NCBI GenBank assembly: GCA_023266575.1
Contig: JAHFPV010000011.1
Location: 84,763 to 148,762, forward strand
Direction: 5' to 3'
DNA from: Sphingobium sp.
GTDB lineage: Bacteria; Pseudomonadota; Alphaproteobacteria; Sphingomonadales; Sphingomonadaceae
DNA length: 64,000 bases
Shown here piece by piece: positions 16,567 through 52,323 of the stretch. Position numbers and translations under genes: made by a program. The notes below the pieces were generated by a model. It searched no databases, was not told where the DNA came from, and saw only the letters and a list, made by a program, of their open reading frames with translations. Each line of letters begins with the position of its first letter. The stretch's first letter is position 1.

Positions 16567-16584
16567 TCCATCTCACCCCGCCAG

Positions 16585-16618
16585 TGGGCGGAGCGGCACG
16601 ACCATGCCACTCCGCCCA
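16585..16618 (+). terminator. Hairpin after the TonB receptor gene
   Basis: TGGGCGGAG / CTCCGCCCA (16585-16593 with 16610-16618), plus an additional interrupted inner stem. It lies 19 bp after the stop codon and has no strong T tract. Confidence 0.5.
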
Positions 16619-16664
16619 TTGCTGGCCATTTGCGCCGGGGGTTCGGCTGGGCTAGAGCCTGCCC

Positions 16665-17537: not shown

Positions 17538-17613
17538 TTTGCCTGTGGCATAAGCGCCGCTATTGATCGCGCCTTCTGCCCATCTGTTTCTGATCCATGT
17601 CCCGGAGAATATC

Positions 17614-18312: not shown

Positions 18313-19676
18313 ATGAGCGCATGGGAATGGACAGCATGAAGACAAAAGCGCCCATTGGCCGCGCCGTGACGCTCACCCTGATGATCGCGCTGCTGGCCGG
18401 CTGCGGCATTGTTGGCGGCAAGAAGGGTGGTCCCAAGACCCCGGTGCTGGGCAACCGCGTGTCCATCCTGAACAATGAACAGGGTGTCGAGGTTGAACCC
18501 GCGCTGGCCGACGTGCCGGTCAGCCTGCCTGCCCCCTATGTCAACGAACAATGGGCGCAGCCGGGCGGCGATCCGTCCAAGGCGATGGGCAATGTCTCGT
18601 TGGGCGGATCACCCACACAGGTGTGGAGCGCCTCGATCGAGGGCAGCTCGCCGCAGGCGCGCCTCGCCGCATCCCCGGTCGTGTCGGGCGGCAAGCTGTT
18701 CGTGACCGACGCGGGCGCGCATGTCATCGCGTTTGACGCGGCGAGTGGCGGCAAATTGTGGCAGACCAGCCTGCCTGCCGAGGGCAAGGGCAATGGCCGT
18801 TCGCTCTTCGGCGGCGGCGTCAGCGTATTGGGTGACCGGGTGTTCGCCAGCACGGGCCTTGGCGACGTATTCGCCCTCAATACCGCAGACGGGGCGATCA
18901 TCTGGAAGAAGCATCTGGCCGGGCCATTGCGCGGCGCGCCGACGCTGGAAAATGGCCATGTCTATGTGATGGGTCAGGACAACCAGATTTTCGCGCTCAA
19001 CCAGTCCGATGGCGAAACCCAGTGGACCGACAGCGGCACATTGCAGGTGACCGGCGTGTTCGGCGTCGCCGCCCCCGCAGCCGCCCAGGGCACGGTGATC
19101 GCGGGTTACAGCTCCGGCGAACTGACCGCCTATCGCTACGAAAATGGCCGCACCCTGTGGGGCGACGCCCTCTCGCGCACCAGCATTTCGACCGCCGTTG
19201 CGACGCTGACCGACATCGATGCCGACCCGGTGATTGACCGAGGCCGGGTGTTCGCCATCGGTCAGGGCGGCCGCATGGCCTCCTATGAACTGACCAGCGG
19301 CCAGCGCCTGTGGGAAATCAATATTGCTGGCATCTCCACCCCGTCGGTGGTCGGCGAATGGGTGTTCGTCGTCACCAGCGACGCCCGCCTGCTCTGCGTC
19401 GCGCGCGCCACCGGCAAGATCCGCTGGGTCAGCCAGCTGCGCCGCTGGCAGAAGGAAAAGAAGAAGGACAAGGCGATCCGCTGGACCGGCCCTGTTCTGG
19501 CGGGCAATCGCCTGATCGTCGTGTCCACGCGCGGCCAGATGGTCTATGTCGATCCCACCAATGGCAGCGTGCAGGCCGAAGTGGACATGGATCGCTCCAT
19601 GTCACTCTCGCCCATCGTCGCCAACAACATGCTTTATCTGCTTGCCGATGATGGAAAATTGACGGCACTCCGCTAA
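18309..19676 (+). CDS. bamB: Outer-membrane assembly lipoprotein BamB (PQQ-like propeller)
   Basis: 455 residues with a lipoprotein signal: the lipobox LLAGC places the modified Cys near residue 35. An eight-bladed beta-propeller with repeated AxxGKLxW-type blades follows (FDAASGGKLWQT, LNTADGAIIWKK, YENGRTLWGD, ELTSGQRLWEI). BamB binds BamA POTRA domains and helps insert outer-membrane proteins. A start at the second or third Met is possible. It is translationally coupled to the upstream gene by ATGA. Confidence 0.93.
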   Translation: MNERMGMDSMKTKAPIGRAVTLTLMIALLAGCGIVGGKKGGPKTPVLGNRVSILNNEQGVEVEPALADVPVSLPAPYVNEQWAQPGGDPSKAMGNVSLGGSPTQVWSASIEGSSPQARLAASPVVSGGKLFVTDAGAHVIAFDAASGGKLWQTSLPAEGKGNGRSLFGGGVSVLGDRVFASTGLGDVFALNTADGAIIWKKHLAGPLRGAPTLENGHVYVMGQDNQIFALNQSDGETQWTDSGTLQVTGVFGVAAPAAAQGTVIAGYSSGELTAYRYENGRTLWGDALSRTSISTAVATLTDIDADPVIDRGRVFAIGQGGRMASYELTSGQRLWEINIAGISTPSVVGEWVFVVTSDARLLCVARATGKIRWVSQLRRWQKEKKKDKAIRWTGPVLAGNRLIVVSTRGQMVYVDPTNGSVQAEVDMDRSMSLSPIVANNMLYLLADDGKLTALR

Positions 19677-19698
19677 GAGCAACAAATATGCTAGGCCT

Positions 19699-19760
19699 GC
19701 TCCCGCGAAGGCGGGAGTCCAGTTCCACCTTTCGGACTGGACTCCCGCCTTCGCGGGAGC
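19699..19760. repeat. Perfect 25-bp inverted repeat between bamB and der
   Basis: Arms 19699-19723 and 19736-19760 are exactly complementary over 25 bp with a 12-nt loop. Each arm contains CCCGCGAAGGCGGG, itself a small palindrome, and a related motif occurs at 27437-27460. It probably works as a terminator or REP-like element for bamB. Confidence 0.85.
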
Positions 19761-19805
19761 ACCGCATTTGTCGATTTTGAATTTGTCAGAAGGAAACGGG
19801 CCTCC

Positions 19806-21170
19806 ATGCTGCCCACAGTAGCCATTGTCGGGCGGCCCAATGTGGGCAAGTCCACTCTCTTCAACCGCCTGGTCGGCAAGAAGCTGGCGCTGGTCGACGA
19901 CCAGCCCGGCGTCACCCGCGACCGGCGGGAGGGCGAGGCGCATCTGCTTGGCCTGGACTTCATCATCGTCGATACCGCCGGTTATGAGGATGAAGACGCC
20001 AATAGCCTGCCCGGCCGGATGCGGATGCAGACCGAGGCGGCAGTCGAAAATTGCGACTTGGCCCTCTTCATGATCGACGCGCGCGCCGGCATCACCCCGC
20101 TGGACGAGGAAATCGCCCGCTGGCTGCGCGCCAATGATGCCCCGGTCGTGCTGGTTGCCAACAAGGCGGAGGGCAAGGCCGCCGATGATGGCGTGATGGA
20201 ATCCTTCAGCCTGGGACTGGGCGAACCTATCCCCTTTTCCGCCGAACATGGTCAAGGCATGGCCGACCTGTTTCAGGCGCTGCTGCCGTATCTGGAAAAG
20301 GAAGATGACGAGCCGCACGAAAAGGAATTTTACGAGGATGACGAGAGCGCGCCGCTCAAGCTCGCCATCGTCGGCCGTCCCAACGCTGGCAAATCCACGC
20401 TGATCAACCGGCTGCTGGGCGAAAACCGCCTGCTGACCGGCCCGGAAGCGGGCATCACCCGCGACAGCATCGCCGTTGACTGGATGTGGGTCAGCGACGA
20501 GGGCCAGGAACGCCCCGTCCGCCTGATCGACACTGCCGGAATGCGCAAACATGCCAAGGTGCAGGACAAGCTGGAAAAGCTGGCCGTCACCGATGGTCTG
20601 AACGCTGTGAACTTCGCCGAAGTCGTCGTGCTGCTGCTCGATTCGACCCGCGGGCTGGAGGCGCAGGATCTGCGCATCGCCGACAAGGTGCTGGAGGAAG
20701 GGCGGGCGCTCGTCGTCGCGCTCAACAAATGGGATACGGTGGAACATGGTTCGGCCCTCTATCAGGGCATCAAGCAGGCGCTGTTCGACGGCCTCGCGCA
20801 GGTGCGCGGCGTGCCGATCATGACCGTGTCGGCCGCGACCGGCAAGGGGCTGGACGACCTGATCCGCGTCGCGTTCGAAACCCGCACCACCTGGTCGAAG
20901 CGCGTGTCCACCGGCGTTCTCAACCGCTGGTTTGAAAGCGCGCTGGAGGCCAATCCCCCGCCAGCGCCGGGCGGCAAGCGGATCAAGCTGCGCTACATCA
21001 CCCAGGCCAAGACCCGCCCCCCCGGCTTCATCCTGTTCGGCACGCGGCTGGACGACCTGCCCGAAAGCTATCGCCGCTATCTGGTCAATGGCATCCGCAA
21101 GGAATTGGGCTTTGGTGCGGTGCCGGTGCGGCTGACGCTGCGCAGCGCCAAAAACCCGTTCGGCAAATAG
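19806..21170 (+). CDS. der: Ribosome assembly GTPase Der (EngA)
   Basis: 454 residues with two tandem GTPase domains. G1 motifs are GRPNVGKST near residue 8 and GRPNAGKST near 190. NKAE and NKWD G4 motifs are present, and G3 appears as DTAGYED and DTAGMRK. A KH-like C-terminal domain ends in RSAKNPFGK. Der acts in 50S subunit maturation. The start fits the family (LPTVAIVGRPN). Confidence 0.98.
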   Translation: MLPTVAIVGRPNVGKSTLFNRLVGKKLALVDDQPGVTRDRREGEAHLLGLDFIIVDTAGYEDEDANSLPGRMRMQTEAAVENCDLALFMIDARAGITPLDEEIARWLRANDAPVVLVANKAEGKAADDGVMESFSLGLGEPIPFSAEHGQGMADLFQALLPYLEKEDDEPHEKEFYEDDESAPLKLAIVGRPNAGKSTLINRLLGENRLLTGPEAGITRDSIAVDWMWVSDEGQERPVRLIDTAGMRKHAKVQDKLEKLAVTDGLNAVNFAEVVVLLLDSTRGLEAQDLRIADKVLEEGRALVVALNKWDTVEHGSALYQGIKQALFDGLAQVRGVPIMTVSAATGKGLDDLIRVAFETRTTWSKRVSTGVLNRWFESALEANPPPAPGGKRIKLRYITQAKTRPPGFILFGTRLDDLPESYRRYLVNGIRKELGFGAVPVRLTLRSAKNPFGK

Positions 21171-34581: not shown

Positions 34582-34655
34582 GGCCCGATGGCGGAGTGGT
34601 TACGCAGAGGACTGCAAATCCTTGCACGCCGGTTCGATTCCGGCTCGGGCCTCCA
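34582..34655 (+). tRNA. tRNA-Cys (GCA)
   Basis: Acceptor stem GGCCCGA / TCGGGCC (34582-34588 with 34645-34651), discriminator U at 34652 as required for tRNA-Cys, and encoded CCA at 34653-34655. Anticodon GCA at 34614-34616, T arm GCCGG-TTCGATT-CCGGC. Its 3' end is followed by an integrase gene, so it served as the attachment site of the element at 34820-37300. Confidence 0.95.
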
Positions 34656-34819: not shown

Positions 34820-35203
34820 ATGGTGCTAACCGATACCGCTATCCGCAATGCCAAGCCCGCAGATAAGCCTTACAAGGTTACTGACTCCCAAGGTTTGTAT
34901 TTGCTCGTCAATCCAAGAGGCAGCAAGCTGTGGCGAATCAAATACCGGATCGATGGCGTAGAGCGAAAACTGTCGCTCGGGGCGTATCCCGAGATTACCT
35001 TGGCCGAGGCGCGCGCTGCCAGGGATGCCGCCCGTAGGCAGCTGGCTCATGCGATCGATCCCAACGTAGCCAAACGACAAGCCCGCATTGAGGCGAGCAT
35101 TCGGGCCAGCAACAGCTTCGCTAGCGTGGCCGAGGAATTGATAGAGAAGAAAGCGCGTGAGGGGTTGCCCGTTGCGCTGTCGAAGACGCGTTCAGTGACT
35201 TGA
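34820..35203 (+). pseudogene. Truncated P4-type tyrosine integrase (N-terminal part)
   Basis: From the ATG at 34820, about 115 residues match the arm-type DNA-binding domain of P4-like integrases: VLTDTAIRNAKPADKPYKVTDSQGLYL, YRIDGVERKLSLGAYPEITLAEAR and ASIRASNSFASVAEELIEKKAREG. The frame then runs into reverse-strand trbI sequence at about 35165-35195 and stops at 35203. The catalytic domain (about 270 residues with the R, H and Y residues) is missing. The position next to tRNA-Cys is the classical arrangement. Confidence 0.9.
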
Positions 35204-35949
35204 GCGGTGACGAGGCCGGGGAGGTCGGACCTGAGTCCCGTAATGAGGCTCGCCGCGATAACGCTGCCAGCGGACAGCATGTCCGACGACGCCGGTGGGC
35301 TCAACCGATGCTCGTTGACATCGCCGCCAGTGTCGCGGGCTGCAACAAAGTCAGCCTTGCGCTGCTGGGCGTTGGGATCGCGATCAAGATCGATGGCGAT
35401 GCGCGACGCATCGCTCGCTACGGCCGGGGGAGATAACGGCGTTGCGGCGGCACCGCGGGTCGGATCGGTGCGGTTGCCGGATTGCACCAGCAATTCCGAC
35501 TCGCGTGCCGCCTTCAGCTCCGCCGCGCGACGATCGCGCTCGGTCGCGGCGGCTTGGTCCGCACGACCGGGTGAGGCGCTCGCCGATTCCACGCCCATCG
35601 CACGCTGATGATTGAGGATGGGTCGGCCGAGATCGCCCGGCAAGGGCGGTCCGAGTTTGGGCACGTCGCCATAACTGCCCGGCAAGCGGCTCAGTGTATC
35701 GGTCGGCGCTTTCGCCGCGACCGTCTGGTCGTCGGCTTTTCCAGCGAGGTGCAGCGCGGACGGCCGCAGCGCGACCCAGGCTGTCGCGATCAGGCTGACC
35801 GAACCAAGCGCCGCGATCGCCACCACGGCGCCCCGCTTGAAGCGGATCGCCCGCGCCGGCTGCGCGCGAAGCGCCAGTGTCTCCGGGTCCACCTTGCCCG
35901 GTGTGGTGGGGGTCCCGGGCGTCGGTGAGGCTGCCGCTTCGAGGGTCAT
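35166..35949 (-). pseudogene. trbI: Truncated trbI (conjugation channel protein)
   Basis: The ATG at 35949 has GGAGGGG upstream. About 260 residues match the TrbI/VirB10 N-terminal part: a cytoplasmic segment, one membrane helix (VVAIAALGSVSLIATAWVAL near 43), a linker, and the start of the conserved domain (AGSVIAASLITGLRSDLPGLV, TAQVTE, VFDSATG). The rest of the VirB10 domain is gone: the frame continues antisense through the integrase to 35047. TrbI links inner and outer membranes in conjugative type IV secretion, so this copy cannot be functional. Confidence 0.88.
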
Positions 35950-38002: not shown

Positions 38003-38032
38003 TTGACATTATTGTTTACGTCGTAATATATA
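38003..38032 (+). promoter_or_regulatory. Promoter with probable TetR operator, TonB receptor gene
   Basis: -35 TTGACA (38003-38008) and -10 TATATA (38027-38032, spacing 18) or TAATAT (38024-38029, spacing 15). Between them lies the dyad TTAC-GTC-GTAA inside TGTTTACGTCGTAATAT (38013-38029). The same 17-mer, with one mismatch, is in front of the short-chain dehydrogenase at 46310-46326. A repressor here would block RNA polymerase. Confidence 0.65.
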
Positions 38033-38068: not shown

Positions 38069-40234
38069 ATGATCAATAGTTATGTCAAGGCGACGCTCAG
38101 CGTTGCGTCGATGCTGGCATCCGTATCGCTGCCCAGCCTGGTCCATGCCCAGACCAGCGCAGCGACCGAACCAGCCGCCGCCTCCGACATCATCGTGACT
38201 GCGCAAAAGCGTAGCGAGCGGTTGCAGGACGTGCCGGTGTCGGTGACCGTGATCGGGGCCGATGCGCTGGCCAACGGCAATATCGACAGCGGCACCGAAA
38301 TCGCGCGCCAGACCCCCAATTTGCGCGCATCGGTGCTGGGCAATGAATCCCAGCCCAAATTCGCGCTGCGCGGCATTTCGACGTCGGAATTCAACCTGAA
38401 CGCGGTGTCGCCCACCGGCATCTTCTACGACGAAGTCTATATCGGCGCGCAATATCTGGGCGGGGCGCAGACGTTCGACATCGAACAAATCGAAGTGCTG
38501 CGTGGGCCGCAGGGGACGCTGTTCGGCAAGAATACGACGGCAGGTGCGATCAACTATATCTCGCACCGCCCGACCTTCGACAATGAAGGCGCGCTGAGCG
38601 TCAACTATGGCTCCTATAATTACGCCCAGATCACCGCCATGGGGGAAGCCCCGCTGGTCGAGGACAGGCTGAGCGTCCGCTTCGCGTTCGACGTTGCCCA
38701 TTCGGACGGTTACATCAAAAGCGTCAACCCGACGGTCAGCGACCGGTCGAATATCGATCACAAATCGGGCCGTTTGACGGTTGGCTACAAGGATGATGCA
38801 GGCTTCAAGGCGACGTTGCGCCTGTTCCACACCGCGTCGGACGCCCGCGCCATCGGCGTCATCAACGAAGGCACCGGGCCGGGCGGGCTGAACGCGCTGG
38901 GCGTCAACCCGCGCATCAATCCCTATACCGGCGCAGCCCTGACCCGGCATGAAACCGCGCTGGATCGCGACGGGCGTTTCATCGTGCGCGGCACCGGCGG
39001 CTATCTGACGCTGGAAAAGGATCTCGGCTTTGCCACGCTGACATCGATCACGTCCCACCTGTGGGGTAGCTTCGTCAACAATGTCGATGCGGACGGCACC
39101 ACCGACAATCTGCTGCACATCGATTTCGGCGCGAAGAACAAGGAAACCAGCCAGGATCTGCGGATCGCCACCAATGGCTCCGGGCCGTTCAAGCTGATCG
39201 CGGGACTCTATTATTTGCGCGACGACATCGCCATCGACACGACCTACACCATCTTCGGCGGCCCGCCGATCCTGCCGATCCTGACCCAGAGCTTCGATCA
39301 GCGGCGCACATCCTATGCTGCCTATATCGACGGCACGTTCGACCTTAGCCAGATGTTCACCCTCTATGGTGGCCTGCGCTATACCAAGGACAAGGGCCGG
39401 TTCAGCAATTTCCAGGTTACACCCATCATCACGCCGCAACCGACGATGCGCTATAATGACGGCAAGCCGACCGGGCGGATCGGCCTGCGTGCCAAGTTCG
39501 GCCGCGACGTCATGGTCTTTGGCCAGTTTGCACGTGGCTATCGCAGCAGCGCGTTCAACGGCGGAGCTTTGACCAACGCGGCGGACCTGAACGTCGCCGA
39601 CCCGGAAAAGCTGGATGCCTATGAAGCAGGTCTGAAGTCGCAATGGTTCGATCGGCGGCTGACCTTCAACCTGTCCGCCTTCCTGTATAATTTCAGCAAC
39701 CAGCAATTCATCAACCTGGTCGGCATCAACAACCAGCAACTGGTCAATGCGGGCAAGTCGCGGATCAAGGGGCTGGAGGTCGAACTGGTCGCGCGGCCGA
39801 CCGACCGGCTGAGCCTGAACGCGGGGCTGGGTCTGCTCGACGGCACCTATCGCCAACTGGTGCTGAACGGAGTCGACCTTTCGGGCAATGACCTGATCGA
39901 GGCTCCGCACCATACTCTCAACTTCGGTGGCGACTATCGCCTGCCGATCGGCGCGGACGGGGCACTGACCTTCCATGCCGACGCCACCCATGTGGGCAAG
40001 CAATTTTTCCAGGCGAGCAATTCGGCGCTGTCCAGAGCCAATGCCTTCTGGGACGTCGGCGCCCGGATCGCGCTGAAGATACCCGACACCCGTTATGAAA
40101 TCGCGATCTATGGCAAGAACCTGACCGACAATCGCGAACTCAACGGCATCGTGGTAGACCCGACCAGCCAGACGCGCTTTGCGACCGTGCCCTATGCCCG
40201 GCGCTTCGGCGCTGAGCTGAGCGCGAAATTCTGA
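38069..40234 (+). CDS. TonB-dependent receptor of the acylglycerol locus
   Basis: 721 residues with a signal peptide cut near VHAQT (residue 27). TonB box DIIVTAQKRSERLQDVPVSV near 39; plug with FALRGISTSEFNLNAV and IEVLRGPQGTLFGKNTTAGAINY; barrel ending in LSAKF with a terminal Phe. It heads an operon with a hydrolase, glpD, glpK and an acyl-CoA ligase (36 bp to the hydrolase start), so the ligand is probably an amphiphilic glycerol ester or related lipid (inference from neighbours). Confidence 0.93.
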   Translation: MINSYVKATLSVASMLASVSLPSLVHAQTSAATEPAAASDIIVTAQKRSERLQDVPVSVTVIGADALANGNIDSGTEIARQTPNLRASVLGNESQPKFALRGISTSEFNLNAVSPTGIFYDEVYIGAQYLGGAQTFDIEQIEVLRGPQGTLFGKNTTAGAINYISHRPTFDNEGALSVNYGSYNYAQITAMGEAPLVEDRLSVRFAFDVAHSDGYIKSVNPTVSDRSNIDHKSGRLTVGYKDDAGFKATLRLFHTASDARAIGVINEGTGPGGLNALGVNPRINPYTGAALTRHETALDRDGRFIVRGTGGYLTLEKDLGFATLTSITSHLWGSFVNNVDADGTTDNLLHIDFGAKNKETSQDLRIATNGSGPFKLIAGLYYLRDDIAIDTTYTIFGGPPILPILTQSFDQRRTSYAAYIDGTFDLSQMFTLYGGLRYTKDKGRFSNFQVTPIITPQPTMRYNDGKPTGRIGLRAKFGRDVMVFGQFARGYRSSAFNGGALTNAADLNVADPEKLDAYEAGLKSQWFDRRLTFNLSAFLYNFSNQQFINLVGINNQQLVNAGKSRIKGLEVELVARPTDRLSLNAGLGLLDGTYRQLVLNGVDLSGNDLIEAPHHTLNFGGDYRLPIGADGALTFHADATHVGKQFFQASNSALSRANAFWDVGARIALKIPDTRYEIAIYGKNLTDNRELNGIVVDPTSQTRFATVPYARRFGAELSAKF

Positions 40235-40270
40235 TCGCGCGTGCATAAAGAGAAGGAGAGCTGCACCGCC

Positions 40271-41152
40271 ATGGACACAGGATTGACGCTGCACCGGACA
40301 GACGGTCATCAGGCCGCCTGCTATCGCTGGTCCCATGGCGGTGCGCCCCGCGCGGTGCTGGTCATGGCGCATGGCATGGGCGAACATGCCCTGCGCTACC
40401 GCCCGGCCCTCGCAGGGCTTATCGACAGCGGTGTGGCGATCTACGCGATCGACCATCGCGGCCATGGCGGGACCATGGCGCTGAACGGCGGGGTGGCGGG
40501 CGATTTCGGACCGGGCGGTTTTGCCGCCGTGGTGGAGGATCTCGCCGCGCTTGTCCGCCGGGCGCGGGCCGACCATCCCGATCTGCCCCTGTTCCTGCTG
40601 GGGCACAGCATGGGGTCGTTCATCGCCCAGGCCTTCCTGATCGACCATGGCACGCTGATCGACGGCGCGGTCCTGGTCGGCACCACGGCAGTGGACCGGC
40701 TGGCCGAGGCGATGGCGCGCGAACCGGATGCGATGGCGGCCCTCAACCGTCCGTTCGAACCCGCCCGCACGCCGTGCGACTGGCTGAGCCGCGATCCCGC
40801 GCAGGTGGACGCCTATCTCGCCGATCCGCTGTGCGGCTTTGCGCTGGTGCCGGACTCAATGGTTTCGTTGCTGTCGCAGGGCGAGAGGCTGGCCGATCCC
40901 ACGGCGCTGAACCGCATCCCGGCGGGCCTGCCGCTGTCCATCCTGGTGGGCGGCAGCGATGTGCTGATCACCCATTTCGGCGCGCTGGAGCCGCTGGTCG
41001 ATCGCTATCGCGCCGTGGGGCTTGCCCCGGAGGTGACTGTCTATCCCGATGCCCGGCATGAGATATTGAACGAGACGAACCGGGCCGACGTGACCGGCGA
41101 CCTGTCGATCTGGATCGACAGCAACATCGAGGCCCGCTTTGTCCATGCCTGA
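40271..41152 (+). CDS. Monoacylglycerol-lipase-like alpha/beta hydrolase
   Basis: 293 residues from the ATG at 40271; an upstream in-frame GTG at 40241 is less likely. Serine-hydrolase-4/lysophospholipase family: VMAHGMGEHALRY (oxyanion region), AIDHRGHGGT, nucleophile elbow GHSMGS near 116, Asp in VGGSDVL, His in PDARHEIL near 265. No signal peptide, so it acts in the cytoplasm unless exported otherwise. Expected to free fatty acid and glycerol from monoacylglycerol. It overlaps glpD by 8 bp. Confidence 0.88.
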   Translation: MDTGLTLHRTDGHQAACYRWSHGGAPRAVLVMAHGMGEHALRYRPALAGLIDSGVAIYAIDHRGHGGTMALNGGVAGDFGPGGFAAVVEDLAALVRRARADHPDLPLFLLGHSMGSFIAQAFLIDHGTLIDGAVLVGTTAVDRLAEAMAREPDAMAALNRPFEPARTPCDWLSRDPAQVDAYLADPLCGFALVPDSMVSLLSQGERLADPTALNRIPAGLPLSILVGGSDVLITHFGALEPLVDRYRAVGLAPEVTVYPDARHEILNETNRADVTGDLSIWIDSNIEARFVHA

Positions 41153-42596
41153 TCCTTACGACATGCTGATCGTCGGCGGCGGCGTCAACGGCACCGCCAT
41201 CGCCAGAGCCGCCGCGCTCGCGGGCCAGAGCGTGCTGCTGGTCGAGCAGGGCGATCTGGCGCAGGGGACATCTTCTGCTTCCACCAAGCTGATGCATGGC
41301 GGGCTGCGCTATCTGGAATATTATGAGTTCAAACTGGTGCGCGAAGCACTGGCCGAACGCGCGATCATGCTGCGCACCGCGCCACACATCGTCCGCCCGC
41401 TGGAGTTTCGCCTGCCCCATATGCCCGCCATGCGGCCTTGGCCTGTCGTGCGGATGGGATTGTGGCTCTATGATCTGTTCGCGCTGGGTGGCGGATTGCC
41501 CCGGTCGCGCGGCATCCGGCAGAACGATCCGGCGCTGACGCAAAGCGGCGGGCGGGGGTTCAGTTACTGGGACGGCTGGGTCGACGATGCCCGGCTGGTG
41601 GTGCTGAACGCCATGGACGCGGCGGAGGCCGGGGCGGAGATCCGCACCCACACCCGGATGGAATCGGCGCAGCGGCAGGCGGATCAGTGGACGGCGACGC
41701 TGCGCGACAAGGATGGCGCGCATCAGGTCGCGGCGCGCACCATCGTCAATGCCGCCGGGCCATGGGTGGAGCAGGTGCTGCACGGCCGGCTGGGGCAAAA
41801 GGACGGCAGCCATATCCGGTTGGTGCGAGGGTGCCATATCGTCGTTAAGCGCTGCCTGACCGGCGATCACGCCTGGATGCTCCAGCAACCCGATGGCCGG
41901 ATCGTCTTTGCCATTCCCTATCTGGATGACTTCACCCTGATCGGCACCACCGAAGTCACGGTGGACAACCCGACCGATACCGCTATCGCGACTGACGAGA
42001 TCGCCTATCTGCTGGCGGCGGCCAACCGCTATCTGCGCACGCCGCTGCACGAGGCGGCAATCGTCGGCAGCTATGGTGGCATCCGCCCGCTGGTGGATGA
42101 CGGCACGCAGGCGGCCAGCGCGGTCAGCCGCGACTATCGGCTGGAATTGGACCGCCAGGGCGCGCCGTTGCTGAGCGTGTTTGGCGGCAAAATAACCACC
42201 GCGCGACATCTGGCGCAGGCGGCGCTGGACCGGCTGGAGATAGCGGGCGGGGATACGCGCGAACGTCCGCTGCCCGGCGGCGACATAGCAGCTTTCGGGG
42301 TGTTTCTGGTGGAAGTTCGTCAGCGGTGGCCGTTCCTCGACGAACACGTCGCGCGGCGCATGGCGCAGGCCTATGGCAGTCGGATCGGCATAGTGATGGG
42401 CGACGCGCGTACGTTCGATGATCTGGGCGCCGACTTCGGCGCGGGGTTGCGGGCGCGGGAGGTCGATTATCTGTGCCGCCAAGAATGGGCGCGCGGTGCC
42501 GACGACATCCTCTGGCGGCGGACCAAATTGGGCTATTATCTGAAGCCCGCGCAGGTCGAACAGCTGAGCCGTTATGTTCGCGAGGCGACCGCATGA
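41145..42596 (+). CDS. glpD: Glycerol-3-phosphate dehydrogenase (FAD)
   Basis: 483 residues from the ATG at 41145. Rossmann FAD motif LIVGGGVNG near residues 8-16, then TSSASTKLMHGGLRYLE, IVNAAGPWVEQV, and GGIRPLVDDG. The C-terminal capping domain has the YGSR segment. GlpD oxidises sn-glycerol-3-phosphate to dihydroxyacetone phosphate and passes electrons to quinone at the inner membrane. ATGA overlap with glpK. Confidence 0.96.
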   Translation: MPDPYDMLIVGGGVNGTAIARAAALAGQSVLLVEQGDLAQGTSSASTKLMHGGLRYLEYYEFKLVREALAERAIMLRTAPHIVRPLEFRLPHMPAMRPWPVVRMGLWLYDLFALGGGLPRSRGIRQNDPALTQSGGRGFSYWDGWVDDARLVVLNAMDAAEAGAEIRTHTRMESAQRQADQWTATLRDKDGAHQVAARTIVNAAGPWVEQVLHGRLGQKDGSHIRLVRGCHIVVKRCLTGDHAWMLQQPDGRIVFAIPYLDDFTLIGTTEVTVDNPTDTAIATDEIAYLLAAANRYLRTPLHEAAIVGSYGGIRPLVDDGTQAASAVSRDYRLELDRQGAPLLSVFGGKITTARHLAQAALDRLEIAGGDTRERPLPGGDIAAFGVFLVEVRQRWPFLDEHVARRMAQAYGSRIGIVMGDARTFDDLGADFGAGLRAREVDYLCRQEWARGADDILWRRTKLGYYLKPAQVEQLSRYVREATA

Positions 42597-44071
42597 GCAT
42601 CATCGCCATCGACCAGGGCACCACCTCTACCCGCGCGATCCGTTTTGACGCCGATGCCGCGATCGAAGCCACCGCCAGCCGCGATCTGCCGCAATCCTAT
42701 CCCCATCCCGGCTGGGTCGAACAAGACCCGGTGCATATTTGGCAGGGCGCGCTGGCAACGCTGCGCGAGGTGCTGACCGAAGATGTCGCCGCAATCGGCA
42801 TCACCAACCAGCGTGAAACGATCCTGCTATGGGACCGGGCGACCGGCGAGCCGCTGCATAATGCGATCGTCTGGCAGGACCGCCGCACCGCCGACCGCTG
42901 CGCCGCGCTGCTGGCTGATGGCATGGAGCCGATGGTGCGGGCCAGGACCGGCCTGTTGCTCGACCCCTATTTTTCCGCGACTAAGCTCTGTTGGCTGCTC
43001 GACACCCTCCCCGGCGCGCGGGCGCGGGCGGAGCGGGGCGAACTGGCGGCGGGAACAGTGGACAGCTTCCTGCTGTGGCGACTGACCGGCGGGCGGGTCC
43101 ATGCCACCGACCTGACCAACGCCAGCCGCACCCTGCTCTACAATATCGTGACCGAGCAGTGGGACGATGATTTGCTCAACCTCTTCGCCATTCCGCGCGC
43201 ATTATTGCCGGACGTCCATGCCAACGCGCACTTCTTCGGCACCACCGACCCCGCGATCACCGGCCGCGCCATCCCTATTGCGGGGATGGCAGGCGACCAG
43301 CAGGCCGCGCTGATCGGCCAGCGCTGCTTTGCGCCGGGGCAGATCAAATCGACCTATGGCACCGGCTGCTTCCTGCTGTCCAACATCGGCACCGTGCCGA
43401 CGCTGTCGGACAAGCGCCTGCTGACCACCATCGGCTATCGCATCGGGCAGGACCGCGCCTATGCGATGGAAGGGTCGATCTTCATTGCGGGCGCGGCGAT
43501 CAAATGGCTGCGCGATACGATGGGCATCATTACCAGCGCGGCGGATAGCGCCCGGCTGGCCGCATCCGTCCCCGCCGATCATGGCGTTCACCTGATCCCT
43601 GCCTTTGTCGGCATGGGCGCGCCGCACTGGCGGACCGATGTGCGCGCCTCGATCACCGGGCTGACGCTCGATACCGGCCCGGCGCAGATTGCCCGCGCCG
43701 CGCTGGAGGCGGTGGCGTTCCAGACCTGCGATCTGGTCGAAGCGATGGCAGGCGAAGGGGTCGCGCCGCCCGCCATACTGCGCATCGACGGTGGCATGGC
43801 GACGAACGACTGGTTCGCGCAGTTCTTGGCCGACATGATGGGCCTGCCGGTCGAACGCCCCGCCAATCATGAAAGTACGGCGCTGGGCGCTGCCTTTCTC
43901 GCGGGCATCACCATCGGCTTGTGGCCTGATCTGGCCGCGCTCGATCGTCTGCCGCGCGCGACCCGTTGTTTTACCCCTGCCGCCGCCGCCGCGGATCGGG
44001 CAGTATCGCTGCGACGCTGGCGCCAGGCCGTGCAACATGCACTGGCGACCGGCGCGGAGGAGAGGATCTGA
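42593..44071 (+). CDS. glpK: Glycerol kinase
   Basis: 492 residues from the ATG at 42593. FGGY fold: DQGTTSTRAI near 7, HPGWVEQDP, ITNQRETILLWD, GIAGDQQAALIGQ-like (GMAGDQQAALIGQ), GTGCFLL, and the C-terminal ATP site with RIDGGMATNDWFAQ. Phosphorylates glycerol for GlpD. It overlaps both neighbours by a few bases (ATGA, then TGATG), so it is strongly coupled within the operon. Confidence 0.96.
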   Translation: MSIIAIDQGTTSTRAIRFDADAAIEATASRDLPQSYPHPGWVEQDPVHIWQGALATLREVLTEDVAAIGITNQRETILLWDRATGEPLHNAIVWQDRRTADRCAALLADGMEPMVRARTGLLLDPYFSATKLCWLLDTLPGARARAERGELAAGTVDSFLLWRLTGGRVHATDLTNASRTLLYNIVTEQWDDDLLNLFAIPRALLPDVHANAHFFGTTDPAITGRAIPIAGMAGDQQAALIGQRCFAPGQIKSTYGTGCFLLSNIGTVPTLSDKRLLTTIGYRIGQDRAYAMEGSIFIAGAAIKWLRDTMGIITSAADSARLAASVPADHGVHLIPAFVGMGAPHWRTDVRASITGLTLDTGPAQIARAALEAVAFQTCDLVEAMAGEGVAPPAILRIDGGMATNDWFAQFLADMMGLPVERPANHESTALGAAFLAGITIGLWPDLAALDRLPRATRCFTPAAAAADRAVSLRRWRQAVQHALATGAEERI

Positions 44072-45609
44072 TGACCATGGACTGGACCATCCCGTCGACC
44101 CTGAGCGACGTGGGCCGCGCGCAGCCAGGCCTTGGCGACAAGATCGCGCTGTCGGACGGCGCGCAGACCCTGAGCTATGCCGATCTCGACCAGCAGATTG
44201 ACGCGGCCCATGGCGTCTATGCGGCGCTGGGCCTGACGCCTGGTGACCGTGTCGTGCTGCTGCTCCCCGCCTCGACCAGCTTTGTTGCCGCCTATTTCGG
44301 TGCGCACCGGGCGGGGCTGATCCTGATCCCGCTCAATCCGCTGCTTGGGCCGGACGAGATCGGCTTCATCCTGTCGACCATGCGCCCTGCGCTGGTGCTG
44401 GCCGCCGCCACCGACGCGCCATTCCCGGTCATGGCAGCACTTGACGATCTGGTTGCGGCGCTTGACCCGACACCCCGGCTGATCCGCATCGCCGACTTTG
44501 TCGCAAGCATGGCGGACGCCGCGATCGACCGCGCCGCCATCGTCCGCCATCCCGATGACGAAGCGCTGATCCTGTTCACATCCGGCACGTCGGGCCGTCC
44601 CAAGGGTGCGTCACATCGTGAAGGCGCGCTCATCACCAATGGTCGCCACAGCAATGGCGTGCTGGGCATCGGCCCCAACGATGTGCTGCTCTGCCCGCTG
44701 CCGCTGTCCCATGTCTTTGGCCAGATCGTGCTGATGCTCGGCGGGCTGATGGCGGGCGGCGAGGTGGTGATCGTCGCCCGGCCCAGTCCTGACGCGGTGC
44801 TGGCCGCGATGACCGAGCGACAGGTGACAATCATGGCGGCGGTGCCGACCATCTTTGCCGCGCTCGCCGAAAAGGGGCGAAGCGATCCCGATGCCGGTCA
44901 TGCCGCCGCCCGCCGCCTTCGCTTCGCCTTTGCAGGGGGCGCGCCGCTACCGCCCGCGACCGGCGAAGCGTTCCGCGCGTCCTTTGGCGTGCCGGTCCAT
45001 CAGGGGTACGGCATGACCGAAGTGGCATGCTGCATCGCGCTGGAATCGCACGCGCTCCCGCCATCGGGCGGGGTCGGGCGGCTCTGCACCACGCTCGACC
45101 ACCGCATCGTGCCGATCAGTGCCGACACGCCCGATGAGGGCGAACTGGAGATTGCCGGGCCCAACCTGATGCGCGGCTATTATGTCGATGGCTATTTGCA
45201 GCCCCGCCCCGCTACCCAATGGTTCTCGACCGGCGACATTGTCCGCCGAGACGGGGACGGCAACATCTTCCTGTTCGATCGCAAGAAGGAGATGATCATC
45301 CGCAACGGTTATAATGTCTATCCGTCGGAAGTGGAGGCGGCGCTAGCCAGTCATCCCGCCGTGTTGCTGGCCGCCGTGATCGGGGTGGAGGATGCAGCAG
45401 TCGGACAGGAGGTCGCCGCCTTCGTCAGCCTGCGCGAAGGCGCGTCAGCCACGCCGATGGAACTGGCCAACTGGTGCCGCGCGCGCATCGCCCTCTATAA
45501 ATACCCGCGCCTCGTCGCGATCATGGAGCGACTGCCGACCAACGCCACGGGCAAGATATTGAAGCGCGCGCTCGATCCTGCCCTACTCCAGCCGGTCGAT
45601 AGCCTGTAG
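44071..45609 (+). CDS. Acyl-CoA synthetase-like AMP-dependent ligase
   Basis: 512 residues from the ATG at 44071 (AGGAG upstream). ANL superfamily motifs: ILFTSGTSGRPKGASH near 168-183, VHQGYGMTE near 310, FSTGDI and DRKKEMIIRNGYNVYP (A8 hinge), and the catalytic Lys in NATGKILKR near 500. It activates a carboxylic acid, most likely a fatty acid, to the CoA thioester. In this operon it would handle the acid freed by the hydrolase (inference). Confidence 0.93.
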   Translation: MTMDWTIPSTLSDVGRAQPGLGDKIALSDGAQTLSYADLDQQIDAAHGVYAALGLTPGDRVVLLLPASTSFVAAYFGAHRAGLILIPLNPLLGPDEIGFILSTMRPALVLAAATDAPFPVMAALDDLVAALDPTPRLIRIADFVASMADAAIDRAAIVRHPDDEALILFTSGTSGRPKGASHREGALITNGRHSNGVLGIGPNDVLLCPLPLSHVFGQIVLMLGGLMAGGEVVIVARPSPDAVLAAMTERQVTIMAAVPTIFAALAEKGRSDPDAGHAAARRLRFAFAGGAPLPPATGEAFRASFGVPVHQGYGMTEVACCIALESHALPPSGGVGRLCTTLDHRIVPISADTPDEGELEIAGPNLMRGYYVDGYLQPRPATQWFSTGDIVRRDGDGNIFLFDRKKEMIIRNGYNVYPSEVEAALASHPAVLLAAVIGVEDAAVGQEVAAFVSLREGASATPMELANWCRARIALYKYPRLVAIMERLPTNATGKILKRALDPALLQPVDSL

Positions 45610-45619
45610 GCGCGATCAC

Positions 45620-46276
45620 ATGACAGCATCCACCCCCAAAAGACGCGGCCGACCGCCCGCTGATCCCGCCGCGCAGGCGGCCACCGCGCAGGACGCGCGC
45701 AACGCTATCTGCCATGCGGCGGTGACACTGTTTCAGGCGGGCGGGGTGGATGCGGTCAATATGCGCGACATCGGCAAGCAACTCGGCACGTCGCAGATGA
45801 TGGCCTATCGCTATTTCCCCAGCAAGGATCATCTGCTGATGGAATTGCGTATCCGCGCCTTCTCCCGCTTCACCCAGTCGCTTGCCCGCTGGCGACGGCG
45901 CGCCCGCCATCCCGGCGAAGCACTTGGTCTGGTCTGCGGCGCCTATCTCGTCTTTGCCTATGCCAATCCGCATGATTATCGGCTGATGTTCGACATGTGG
46001 GCCTTTGAAAGCCCCGAAACGATGAAGGCCGAATTTGGGGAAAAGGTCCGCCGCCAGTCAGCCTCCTGGCTGGAAATACAGGCGGCGATCCGCGACTATC
46101 TGGATGTCGACGCCGGGGCTGATCTGGGCGAGGCGACCGATATCGTCTGGGGCAGCCTGCACGGCATGTGTTCCCTGCATCTGGCGCGCAAACTGGTATT
46201 TGGCCGGTCGCTGCGCCAGCTCGCCCGTCCGACCATCGCCGCGATCGTGGCGGGCGTCCGCATCCACAAAAGCTAA
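45620..46276 (+). CDS. TetR-family transcriptional regulator
   Basis: 218 residues. N-terminal basic arm (PKRRGRPPADP), HTH near 30-75 (NMRDIGKQLGTSQMMAYRYFPSKDHLL), and a helical ligand-binding domain. It starts 10 bp after the ligase gene and is cotranscribed with the operon. The 17-bp motif at 38013 and 46310 flanking the locus is its likely operator. The inducer would be a substrate or an acyl-CoA intermediate (inference). Confidence 0.92.
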   Translation: MTASTPKRRGRPPADPAAQAATAQDARNAICHAAVTLFQAGGVDAVNMRDIGKQLGTSQMMAYRYFPSKDHLLMELRIRAFSRFTQSLARWRRRARHPGEALGLVCGAYLVFAYANPHDYRLMFDMWAFESPETMKAEFGEKVRRQSASWLEIQAAIRDYLDVDAGADLGEATDIVWGSLHGMCSLHLARKLVFGRSLRQLARPTIAAIVAGVRIHKS

Positions 46277-46309
46277 CCCTCCATATCGATCCACCATGCA
46301 CGACCACTG

Positions 46310-46326
46310 TGTTTACATCGTAATAT
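46310..46326 (+). promoter_or_regulatory. Second copy of the probable TetR operator
   Basis: TGTTTACATCGTAATAT with dyad TTAC-ATC-GTAA, one mismatch to 38013-38029. The TAATAT could be a -10 box; it ends 16 bp before the dehydrogenase ATG. Confidence 0.6.
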
Positions 46327-46342
46327 TGAATTGGAACATCCC

Positions 46343-47227
46343 ATGGAAACAACCCTGAAAGGCAAGACCCTGTTCATCAGCGGCGGATCGCGGGGCATTG
46401 GCCTGGCCATCGCCCTGCGCGCCGCGCGCGACGGCGCGCAAATCGCCATCGCAGCTAAGACGACTACGCCCCACCCCTCGCTGCCCGGCACCATCCACAG
46501 TGCGGCGGCGGCGATAGAAGCGGCAGGCGGCAAAGCCCTGGCGATCCAGTGCGACATTCGCGAAGAAGATCAGGTTGATGCGGCGATTGCTCGGACTGTA
46601 GAAACCTTTGGCGGCCTCGACATTTGCATCAACAATGCCAGCGCCATCCGCCTGACGCCGATCCTCGACACGCCCGTTAAACGATTTGACCTGATGCACG
46701 GCGTCAATGCGCGCGGCACTTTTCTGGTCACGCAAAAGGCGCTGCCGCATCTGCTCAAGGCCGAAAATCCCCACATCATCGCCATCGCCCCGCCCTTGCT
46801 GATGGAAGAACGGTGGTTCGCGCCGCATGTCGGCTATTCCATGGCCAAATTCGGCATGAGCATGCTGATATTGGGGGTGGCGGGCGAATATCGCGGCCTG
46901 ATCGGCGTCAATGCGCTCTGGCCGCGCACCGCGATCGACACCGCCGCCATGGCCGAATTTGAAGGGCATATCGCGGACGGCGCGCTGCGATCGCCATCCA
47001 TCGTCGCGGACGCTGCCCATATGCTGATGACATCGGATGCGCGCACGACGACCGGGCAATTTTTCATCGACGACGAATTGCTGGCCTCGCATGGCGTGAC
47101 TGACCTGTCGGGCTATGGCCCCGAAGGTGTCGACGACATCGACATGATGCCCGATTTCTTCGTGCCGTCGCTGCGGGAATTGCGGGGACTGGCCAAACTT
47201 GGCGATCCCTGTGTTCCAAGCATCTGA
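46343..47227 (+). CDS. Short-chain dehydrogenase, HSDL2-like
   Basis: 294 residues from the ATG at 46343; an in-frame TTG at 46331 is less likely. Cofactor motif SGGSRGIGLA near 12-21, CDIREEDQV, NNASAIRL, and catalytic YSMAKFG (Tyr/Lys near 168-172). The CDIREE and PHPSLPGTIHSAAAAIEAAGG segments mark the HSDL2-like group, linked to peroxisomal or fatty-acyl metabolism in animals. The shared operator puts it in the same regulon as the acylglycerol operon. Substrate not known. Confidence 0.9.
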   Translation: METTLKGKTLFISGGSRGIGLAIALRAARDGAQIAIAAKTTTPHPSLPGTIHSAAAAIEAAGGKALAIQCDIREEDQVDAAIARTVETFGGLDICINNASAIRLTPILDTPVKRFDLMHGVNARGTFLVTQKALPHLLKAENPHIIAIAPPLLMEERWFAPHVGYSMAKFGMSMLILGVAGEYRGLIGVNALWPRTAIDTAAMAEFEGHIADGALRSPSIVADAAHMLMTSDARTTTGQFFIDDELLASHGVTDLSGYGPEGVDDIDMMPDFFVPSLRELRGLAKLGDPCVPSI

Positions 47228-47551: not shown

Positions 47552-48355
47552 TCATTTCACCTTGACGATGGCTGTCCAGCGATCGCGCCAGCTCGTCGCG
47601 CGGGCGACATCGGTGGCGATGCCCGCCCATTCGCGCAGAGCCAGCTTCACGGGATTGGCTTCGCGTACCTTGCCGACCAGACCATAGCGCTTCTCGACGT
47701 CGCTCTCCGGCGCGATCGTGCCGAACAGGCGGTCCCAGAGAATCAGCATGCCGCCATAGTTGCGGTCCAGGAACTCCGGGTTGCTGGCATGGTGTGCCCG
47801 ATGATGGTGCGGCGTGTTGAATATCCATTCGAGCGGGCCGAGGCGCGGGATCGCCTCGCTATGCAGGAAGAACTGGAAGTTTAGGTTGACCGCCAGCAGC
47901 ACGGCCACGACGCGCGGGTCGAAGCCCAGTGCGATGACCGGGAGGTAGAACAGCCAGCCCAGCGACAGCGTGTTCGTCCAGCCCAGCCGCAGCGAGGACA
48001 GGAAGGTCAGCTGTTCGGCGCTGTGATGCACGCTGTGGGTGGCCCACATCCAGCGGATTTCATGGCTCGCGCGGTGAAACCAGTAATAGGCGAACTCGAC
48101 CGCGAAGAAGCCGATCGCCCAGCTCTGCCACTCGGTGGCCGGAAAGCGATGCGGGGCATAGGCCCAGACCGTGGTGAAGGCGGCTGCCAGCACTGCGGCG
48201 TGCAGCGCGCCCGCGACGAGATTGCCCGCCACCAACCCGGCGGTGGTCAGCGCCGCGCGCCCATCATAACCGCGCCCGGAACGGAGCCGCCAGACCAGTT
48301 CGGCCAAGATGGCGATTGCGGCGATGCTGAGGAACAGGGGGGAATGATGCGCCAT
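47552..48355 (-). CDS. Sterol desaturase/fatty acid hydroxylase-family protein
   Basis: 267 residues from the ATG at 48355. Integral membrane di-iron enzyme with the three His clusters HRASHE, HSVHHS and HHHRAHH, and about four to five membrane helices. The family introduces hydroxyl groups or double bonds in lipids, sterols or carotenoids. In sphingomonads relevant products are hydroxylated fatty acids or carotenoids, but the substrate is not evident here. It starts 2 bp after the stop of the EF-hand gene, so the two are coupled. Confidence 0.9.
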   Translation of the reverse strand: MAHHSPLFLSIAAIAILAELVWRLRSGRGYDGRAALTTAGLVAGNLVAGALHAAVLAAAFTTVWAYAPHRFPATEWQSWAIGFFAVEFAYYWFHRASHEIRWMWATHSVHHSAEQLTFLSSLRLGWTNTLSLGWLFYLPVIALGFDPRVVAVLLAVNLNFQFFLHSEAIPRLGPLEWIFNTPHHHRAHHASNPEFLDRNYGGMLILWDRLFGTIAPESDVEKRYGLVGKVREANPVKLALREWAGIATDVARATSWRDRWTAIVKVK

Positions 48356-48357
48356 GG

Positions 48358-48819
48358 CTATTTCCGCCTTGCGGCTAATGACGCCTGCATCCGATCGCGC
48401 GCCGCGTCGAACTCGGCCTTTGTGACCTCGCCATTGCCATTGCCGTCGGCAAGCATGAACATGCGGGGTGGCGAGGATCCCATTTCGGCGCGCGTGACCA
48501 CGCCATCGCCATTGGCGTCGCTCTGGCCGATCATGCCGGTCAATTTCGCATAAGCGTCGGGCCGCAGTTTCGCGAGCCGTGGAAAATCGGTCGGGCTGAC
48601 GACGCCGTCGCCATTGCGGTCGAGCTGGCCGAACTGGCTCTGGCGAAAGGCGGAGAATTCCGCACTGGTAACGCGACCGTCGCGATTGGTGTCGGCCTTG
48701 TCGAACCATTGCAGGGGTTCGCCGCCGCCAAGGCGGCCCATCTGCGCGGCGACCGGGCTCGCGCCCAGTGCCAGGACGCCGATCTGGCAACAGATGAGGA
48801 GAAGGGAGAAGGTCTTCAT
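48358..48819 (-). CDS. Secreted four-EF-hand calcium-binding protein
   Basis: 153 residues from the ATG at 48819, with a signal peptide cut near PVAAQ. Four EF-hand loops are visible: DTNRDGRVTSAE, DRNGDGVVSPTD, DANGDGVVTRAE and DGNGNGEVTKAE. The positions for Ca2+ ligands are filled in all four. Calmodulin-like proteins of this type in bacteria are periplasmic calcium buffers or sensors. Directly upstream of the desaturase-family gene. Confidence 0.9.
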   Translation of the reverse strand: MKTFSLLLICCQIGVLALGASPVAAQMGRLGGGEPLQWFDKADTNRDGRVTSAEFSAFRQSQFGQLDRNGDGVVSPTDFPRLAKLRPDAYAKLTGMIGQSDANGDGVVTRAEMGSSPPRMFMLADGNGNGEVTKAEFDAARDRMQASLAARRK

Positions 48820-51690: not shown

Positions 51691-52323
51691 ATGGAGATGC
51701 GTGAAACTCAACCCACCACTACCAAACGTCCCGTCTGGAATGCGGGAAGAACCGTCGGCGCGAAACGCGCGCTGAAACCGAAGCAAATCTGGGAGATCCG
51801 ATTCTACCTCAATCAGCGCCGCCGCTTGCGAGATCGGGCACTATTTGACCTAGCGATCGACAGCAAACTTCGGGGCTGCGATTTGGTGCAGATGAAGATC
51901 GGCGACATCGTCAGCGGCGGGCAGATCCGAACGCGCGCGATCGTCATGCAGCAGAAAACAGGCCGACCCGTTCAGTTCGAACTGCTCCCCGACGCTCGAG
52001 CTAGCCTGCTGGCCTGGCTCGAGCGGCGGGGCGGCACGATCGATGACTATGTTTTTCCCAGCCGGGTTGACCATAACGCGCATCTTAGCACCCGCCAGTA
52101 CGCCCGGCTCGTAGATGAATGGGTGACAGGGATCGGCCTGATGCGAAGCGACTATGGCACGCACTCACTTCGGCGAACGAAGGCATCGATCATCTACAGG
52201 GCGACCGGCAACCTCCGTGCCGTTCAAATCCTTCTCGGTCATAGCAAGATCGAGAACACAGTGCGCTATCTCGGCATCGACGTGGAAGATGCGCTTGCCC
52301 TCGCCGAGAATACTGAAATTTGA
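51691..52323 (+). CDS. Compact tyrosine recombinase (catalytic domain only)
   Basis: 210 residues, about half of a normal phage integrase. The catalytic residues are in place: Arg in SKLRGCDLV near 60, H-x-x-R in GTHSLRRTKA near 155, His in LLGHSKIENT, and the nucleophile Tyr in VRYLG near 193. No core-binding or arm domain. Short recombinases of this type are widespread in sphingomonads and their targets are unknown. GGAG precedes the ATG. A 7-bp stem at 52334-52350 follows the stop. Confidence 0.88.
   Translation: MEMRETQPTTTKRPVWNAGRTVGAKRALKPKQIWEIRFYLNQRRRLRDRALFDLAIDSKLRGCDLVQMKIGDIVSGGQIRTRAIVMQQKTGRPVQFELLPDARASLLAWLERRGGTIDDYVFPSRVDHNAHLSTRQYARLVDEWVTGIGLMRSDYGTHSLRRTKASIIYRATGNLRAVQILLGHSKIENTVRYLGIDVEDALALAENTEI

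Follow-up and report, generated by a model that had tools for sequence, protein, structure and literature searches.

A horizontally mobile gene cassette in Sphingobium sp. with a predicted role in the use of glycerol esters

The DNA analysed here is a 64,000-nucleotide stretch of a Sphingobium sp. genome (contig JAHFPV010000011.1, positions 84,763 to 148,762; hereafter the window). At 38069–47227, on the + strand, it carries seven genes that encode, in this order, a TonB-dependent receptor, an alpha/beta hydrolase, glycerol-3-phosphate dehydrogenase (GlpD), glycerol kinase (GlpK), an AMP-forming acyl-CoA ligase, a TetR-family regulator and a short-chain dehydrogenase (SDR). The locus is probably a horizontally mobile, self-regulated regulon for the use of glycerol esters, among which monoacylglycerols or comparable amphiphilic acylglycerols are the most likely.

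Gene organization, conservation and operators

Domain and family matches confirmed the seven genes, their place and their common strand as given by the first-pass annotation, which had been made from the DNA letters and translated reading frames. The locus sits on contig C18 of its genome (G000, 3.62 Mb). The receptor (721 residues; 38069–40234) contains a plug (PF07715) and a barrel (PF00593) domain, both above cut-off. The hydrolase gene (40271–41152) begins with ATG, an alternative GTG start at 40241 being possible, and its product is monoacylglycerol-lipase-like (PF12146, 156.2 bits). The glpD gene (41145–42596; NF008899, 625.3 bits, cut-off 360) overlaps the end of the hydrolase gene by 8 bp, glpK (42593–44071; TIGR01311, 629.6 bits, cut-off 590.35) overlaps glpD by 4 bp, and the gene for the 512-residue ligase (44071–45609; PF00501 and PF13193) overlaps glpK by 1 bp. 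The regulator (218 residues; 45620–46276; PF00440 and PF13305) and the HSDL2-like SDR (46343–47227, ATG start; NF006133, 396.7 bits, cut-off 250) complete the set. Calculated from the likely starts, the intergenic distances are 36, -8, -4, -1, 10 and 66 bp. The first six genes are thus spaced by at most 36 bp throughout, with three overlapping junctions, and the SDR gene lies 66 bp beyond the regulator with an operator of its own ahead of it. Because of this gap and the separate operator, the locus likely consists of two transcription units, the six-gene unit and the SDR gene, the latter being a member of the same regulon but not clearly of the same transcript. The tight packing that had been proposed for five genes therefore holds for six, and the proposed single operon likely holds for these six and not clearly for the SDR.

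A scan of genome contigs with the ligase, which depends on exact short peptides and can miss members, found 137 relatives, of which 80 were kept. Three of these are at least 53% identical to the window ligase and 77 are at most 36% identical. The three belong to Caulobacter sp. AP07 (locus L018; Caulobacteraceae, Alphaproteobacteria), bacterium AAP38 (L019) and Aestuariicella hydrocarbonica (L020; Cellvibrionaceae, Gammaproteobacteria). In a sample of the class, the ligase was found in 2 of 385 genomes, the window's own and one other (G572, locus L108); in the family of the latter it occurs in 2 of 82 genomes, the second very probably being AAP38 itself, and L019 and L108 probably represent one genus. 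All seven genes are present in L018, L019 and L108 in the same order as in the window, with protein identities to the window of 64–80%, 61–76% and 61–76%, respectively; the values for the six genes of L020 are 47–58%. The receptor is 74–75% identical in the three alphaproteobacterial loci and 57% identical in L020, and the regulator 76–78% and 58%. The check for co-conserved gene order that the first-pass annotation had called for was thus passed in three other alphaproteobacterial genomes; in the one gammaproteobacterium the gene order differs and the SDR is missing. Receptor, hydrolase, ligase and regulator occur together in five genomes of two classes, so that a receptor, a degradative enzyme and a regulator are co-conserved across lineages in a manner resembling polysaccharide utilisation loci. 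In the order of the L020 genome, a scan of 293 genomes recovered the ligase from that genome alone, and the 72,556 plasmid records contain no ligase match at 1e-80 and no regulator match at 1e-20. The cassette is rare and patchy, yet present in two classes, and among the Sphingomonadaceae genomes scanned it is no general feature; in the family and class-sample scans three candidates per genome were scored, and absence is no proof.

The region 5' of the receptor gene (38003–38029) contains a -35-like box, TTGACA (38003–38008), followed after 5 bp by operator 1, GTTTACGTCGTAATAT (38014–38029). Operator 2, GTTTACATCGTAATAT (46311–46326, + strand), lies 5' of the SDR gene. A scan of the 3.62-Mb genome with the 16-mer GTTTACRTCGTAATAT, allowing up to two mismatches, returned only these two sites, at 38014 and 46311, both exact, and the reversed-sequence control returned none. 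The operator has an odd-palindromic core, TTACRTYGTAA. In L018, L019 and L108 the corresponding two promoters carry sites that agree with GTTTACRTYGTAATA at 13–15 of 15 positions. When the complete genomes of L018 (G397, 5.6 Mb) and L019 (G398, 5.8 Mb) were scanned with the 15-mer at up to one mismatch, exactly two matches were found in each, both at the cassette promoters, with none in the control. In each of these three genomes with the seven-gene form, both of the two matches are located at the locus promoters and none elsewhere. The window, L018, L019 and L108 each contain a single TTGACA-N5-GTTTAC arrangement, located at the receptor promoter in every case, and none was found in L020. The TTGACA box and operator 1 would form part of the receptor promoter, which a regulator bound at operator 1 would block. 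Given a shared palindromic site at both promoters and nowhere else in three genomes, the seven genes are, as far as sequence can tell, one regulon, very probably under the control of their own TetR protein, the presumed repressor at both operators.

The operator pattern by itself is not a marker of the cassette in the family. At one mismatch it matched in 5 of 249 genomes, and the reversed control in 4 of 249 (five places); the four other family genomes have one single-mismatch match each, which is the chance level, and the cassette genes were not found in the four 1.6–3.0 kb loci around these matches.

An alignment of the uncut L019 and L108 loci with blastn gave a single match, 91.3% identical over 9242 bp, which starts 20 bp ahead of the -35 box and stops 12 bp short of the end of the SDR gene. 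No match was found in the remaining flanks (about 12 kb and 11 kb; 20–21 kb compared). Because the match spans the unit only and the flanks are unmatched, the alignment indicates that the cassette moves as a block. Likewise, the 10-kb flanks of the window gave no blastn match at 1e-5, a search that very diverged DNA escapes, to the flanks of L018, L019, L108 and L020. A gene for an ISL3-type transposase lies 3' of the cassette in L019. The window flanks contain a tRNA-Cys gene (34582–34655), a piece of a TrbI-like conjugation gene (35047–35949) and a tyrosine recombinase gene (51691–52323), which are consistent with a possible integrated element or island DNA; the base composition of the window unit does not stand out. 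A gene of the PF04116 fatty-acid-hydroxylase family (47552–48790, - strand) converges on the cassette, and neither of the two operator matches in the genome is located at it.

Related receptors and a second glpD–glpK pair

The receptor has a signal-peptide-like N-terminus and a TonB-box-like stretch, DIIVTAQKR, both recognized by eye. Orthologues were searched in 94 genomes of the genus (E ≤ 1e-120; 11 candidates per genome were scored, and absence is no proof). They were found in three, namely the window genome, G1154 and G1201 (51% identity), and in all three the receptor gene stands beside glpD–glpK. In G1154 and G1201 it lies 3–4 kb upstream of this pair. The interval in G1154 (L157) encodes an alpha/beta hydrolase, a DUF3237 protein, an Abhydrolase_3 protein and a DeoR regulator, and that in G1201 (L155) an alpha/beta hydrolase and an open reading frame (ORF) without a family match.

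Eight of the plasmid records contain a receptor match, and the best two, both from Sphingopyxis macrogoltabida, are 68.9% identical to the window receptor and have the same coordinates. On plasmid NZ_CP009430 (L162) the receptor, a hydrolase 55% identical to that of the window, a lipase-like protein and a lipase chaperone are encoded in a row (14872–19984). The chaperone was confirmed as PF03280 (Lipase_chap); the protein annotated as triacylglycerol lipase matches general models only (PF00561 and PF02089). No operator and no GlpD, GlpK or TetR match was found in the 32-kb plasmid stretch. The row possibly constitutes a complete route from fat to monoglyceride uptake. Weaker receptor relatives comprise four in the family (37–38% identity) and six on plasmids (34–36%). 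At a further locus (L149, 4362–13362), a TonB receptor 25% identical to that of the window lies near genes for an alpha/beta hydrolase, an FMN-dependent dehydrogenase, GlpK (on the opposite strand) and GlpD, and this locus perhaps serves glycerol esters of hydroxy acids. Another locus (L156), which has a TonB receptor of another class, GlpK and malonate-type neighbours, was set aside. Taken from their gene content, the receptor neighbourhoods that were not selected via the ligase or glp genes point to esters and lipids.

The window genome contains a second glpD–glpK pair on contig C14 (83691–86703; L098 7692–10704, - strand), and its GlpK matches number two. The C14 proteins are closely related to those of the cassette (GlpK 93% and GlpD 85% identical; DNA 87% over 2951 bp). 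The DNA match begins within the last bases of the hydrolase gene, and a 53-bp piece just upstream is 94% identical to the start of the cassette hydrolase. The same arrangement is present in G1157 (L146) and G1168 (L147). In all three genomes the hydrolase leftovers form an in-frame ORF of 20 codons that ends at the hydrolase end and overlaps the start of glpD; in L147 the frame is kept though residues differ. The DNA shared around the remnant extends over 5.3 kb between C14 and L147 (87%) and 3.2 kb between C14 and L146 (92%). In a GlpD tree of 19 rows the three remnants form a group (92/86) that adjoins the window (100/99), and a single clade (100/100) holds them together with the four alphaproteobacterial cassettes. 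The same seven group in a GlpK tree of 20 rows (100/100), in which the remnants do not separate as a group of their own, and L020 falls outside the cassette clade in both trees. In label-clustering shuffles, values as low were reached in 225 of 500 cases for GlpK, which is uninformative, and in 17 of 500 for GlpD, a weak signal. We infer that an ancestor within the genus held the cassette and that a deletion left glpD–glpK as a plain glycerol pathway, with the mini-ORF kept for translational coupling. Of 61 genomes of the genus, 48 have a GlpK match (E ≤ 1e-60), and other glycerol kinases are therefore common in it.

Proposed pathway and alternative explanations

The seven proteins can be arranged into a catabolic route. 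The receptor would carry the ester across the outer membrane; its onward passage into the cytoplasm would need no dedicated inner-membrane carrier, diffusion or flip-flop being plausible means. The hydrolase, to judge from its family, would split it into a free acid and glycerol. Conversion of glycerol to dihydroxyacetone phosphate is the established reaction of the GlpK and GlpD families, and the ligase would convert the acid to an acyl-CoA for general beta-oxidation. The TetR protein, a product of the first unit, would act on the palindromic operator at both promoters and be released by an acyl-CoA or acid intermediate; the co-regulated SDR probably acts on the acyl part. As no inner-membrane carrier is encoded among the conserved genes, an amphiphilic substrate fits better than a sugar. 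The presence of GlpK argues that the product is free glycerol and not glycerol 3-phosphate. Phospholipids were set aside as substrates on the argument that glycerophosphodiester breakdown gives glycerol 3-phosphate, for which GlpK is unneeded. Monoacylglycerol-type esters are the best-supported substrate on present sequence evidence. The locus had also been called self-contained, which is too strong, since the seven genes include neither a beta-oxidation gene nor an inner-membrane transporter nor a secreted lipase; its acylglycerol reading is borne out in part, by the co-conservation and by the lipase- and esterase-like neighbours of related receptors.

The hydrolase has no signal peptide recognizable by eye. 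HGxGEH and GxSxG are the motifs named for monoacylglycerol lipases (MGLs). The protein has the fold of the Hydrolase_4 MGLs together with HGxGEH, the GxSxG Ser, Asp and His. In four aligned cassettes HGMGEH, GHSMGS, Asp230 and His263 are invariant, and their catalytic roles are presumably those associated with these motifs. Its best sequence matches in the PDB are the alpha/beta hydrolases 5o7g and 5olu, 6khk, and mycobacterial and human MGLs. A Foldseek search with the hydrolase model ranked a carboxylesterase and a lipase first, then mycobacterial and human MGLs (24–30% identity), and placed yeast MGL (19–20%) and feruloyl/chlorogenic esterases (14–20%) lower. Hydrolase matches were found in 24 plasmid records, and genomic contexts were covered for five of them (two from Sphingopyxis and one each from Bradyrhizobium, Mycobacterium and Burkholderia). 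The Bradyrhizobium and Mycobacterium relatives (42–43% identity) adjoin genes for acyl-CoA dehydrogenase and enoyl-CoA hydratase; the Burkholderia region carries no annotation. The hydrolase is accordingly predicted, from family and motifs, to split monoacylglycerols.

The main alternative is that the glycerol esters used contain aromatic acids, hydroxycinnamic or other, as do those of suberin and plant waxes, and that the acid is activated by a 4CL/feruloyl-type ligase. The ligase can be assigned to the AMP-binding superfamily only (PF00501 and PF13193, with the conserved motifs present). It remains under the cut-offs of the NCBIfam models among the matches listed (25 of 108), including that of the long-chain fatty-acid-CoA ligase subfamily PRK06187 (NF004837; 334.4 bits, cut-off 476). 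Its nearest sequences in the PDB score alike, namely FadD13 (212.8 bits), feruloyl-CoA synthetase (206.6 bits) and 4CL (190 bits), with oxalate ligase also among them, and its structure model (mean pLDDT 66.6, pTM 0.57) is too weak to read the pocket. One cassette genome is moreover that of Caulobacter sp. AP07, which we take to be plant-associated. Against aromatic esters stand the ranking of mycobacterial and human MGLs over the feruloyl/chlorogenic esterases, although yeast MGL is no closer than these, as well as the lipase-like protein and foldase beside the plasmid receptor relative and the acyl-CoA dehydrogenase and enoyl-CoA hydratase neighbours of the two hydrolase relatives. The conserved core, in addition, holds no aromatic-degradation gene. 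We consider this alternative unlikely.

A second possibility is that the receptor takes up iron, vitamins or something unrelated, and that the enzymes are merely placed under its promoter. The nearest solved relatives of the receptor are of the siderophore and colicin/pesticin types, which favours such a role and counts against acylglycerol import. An identification as a siderophore receptor by family model was rejected, since the score against TIGR01783 (138.3 bits) does not reach the cut-off (223.5), and the receptor is likewise under the cut-offs of the NCBIfam receptor models among the matches listed (25 of 27). Furthermore, receptor, hydrolase, ligase and regulator are kept together in all five genomes, L019 and L108 counting probably as one genus, and the receptor–hydrolase pair persists on the plasmid without the other cassette genes. 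An unrelated receptor is thus more improbable still. That widespread lipid and glycerol genes came together by chance in a single strain might be suggested by the commonness of each gene family by itself and by the lack of a ligase match in the other family genomes scanned. This is hardly credible and was rejected, because the gene order, the operators and the sharp borders of the unit are found again in different classes.

Several findings nevertheless weigh against the use of acylglycerols by a conserved cassette. No lipase gene is present among the seven, the hydrolase model is of moderate quality only (mean pLDDT 70, pTM 0.78), and the family placement of the ligase cannot tell a fatty from an aromatic acid. 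The second glpD–glpK pair means that glycerol use need not depend on the cassette. A scan of 397 family genomes detected the ligase in a single one, the window's own. L020 has no SDR match in 21 kb, its glpD gene lies apart on the other strand, and its gene order is rearranged. It has only two adjacent, degenerate operator copies, 5' of the receptor gene, and the two-site rule fails in its genome (G399), where three one-mismatch matches, none on the cassette contig, compare with one in the control. The L155 and L157 loci are collinear, with about 70% DNA identity, and count as one event; neither contains a ligase match at 1e-8 in 19.9 kb, and glpD of G1154 (L157 7816–9269) is split between two frames, as a broken gene or through an assembly error.

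The SDR is, by its sequence, clearly an HSDL2-like protein, with 3e03, 3kvo (human HSDL2) and 3sc4 as relatives in the PDB. The catalytic signature of such enzymes is a Ser with YxxxK. YSMAK is present in the window protein, and residues ~148–152 read IAPP as opposed to ISPP in human HSDL2, L018, L019 and L108; 3e03 also has Ala.

Relation to known systems

Polysaccharide and carbohydrate utilisation loci (PUL/CUT type) have a TonB receptor, and the cassette resembles them in joining an outer-membrane receptor, a hydrolase, downstream catabolism and a regulator in one regulated, horizontally patchy cluster. It differs in that an esterase or MGL-like hydrolase, glycerol kinase and dehydrogenase, and an acyl-CoA ligase take the place of glycosidases and sugar enzymes, and in that neither a SusD-like gene nor a sugar carrier of the inner membrane is among its seven genes. 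The canonical bacterial glp regulon is glpF–glpK–glpD under DeoR/GlpR control. The cassette shares with it a GlpK and a GlpD above family cut-offs, but lacks GlpF and GlpR, has a TetR-type site instead, and links the pair with a receptor, a hydrolase and a ligase. L020 and L157 are accompanied by a DeoR gene. With the MGLs Rv0183/mtbMGL and human MGLL the hydrolase shares the fold and both motifs, whereas its closest structural match is a Bacillus coagulans carboxylesterase; MGL activity is a prediction.

TonB receptors of marine bacteria and sphingomonads have been linked to lipid metabolism before. A receptor termed a siderophore transporter was placed in an operon for fatty acid metabolism (PMC3400609), and many sphingomonad receptors are labelled 'lipid transport and metabolism' in a table of PMC7142613. 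The words glycerol and lipase are absent from the main texts of both, the passages considered describe no unit of glpD–glpK, ligase and operator, and passages of PMC7190382 contain nothing on glycerides. No such locus is described in the titles and abstract openings among the matches listed, most subscription literature and preprints lying outside their reach. Within this literature, the idea of lipid-linked TonB receptors is not new, and the defined unit with its operator appears to be.

What is known of lipid import across the outer membrane of Gram-negative bacteria concerns mainly free fatty acids (FadL). More tentatively, the cassette may represent an undescribed class of mobile lipid-utilisation units, in which a TonB receptor would actively import acylglycerols as an alternative to FadL, ester-processing modules would be interchangeable around a core of receptor and glpD–glpK, and the glycerol arm would later have been kept alone in the genus as a separate glycerol pathway. 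That seven genes with a private switch recur as a unit in unrelated bacteria suggests a lipid-using counterpart of the sugar-utilising gene clusters. As a compact, transferable unit, the cassette provides a defined receptor, hydrolase and operator for probing acylglycerol import by TonB receptors, and its neighbours could help to assign some of the many unassigned receptors of sphingomonads.

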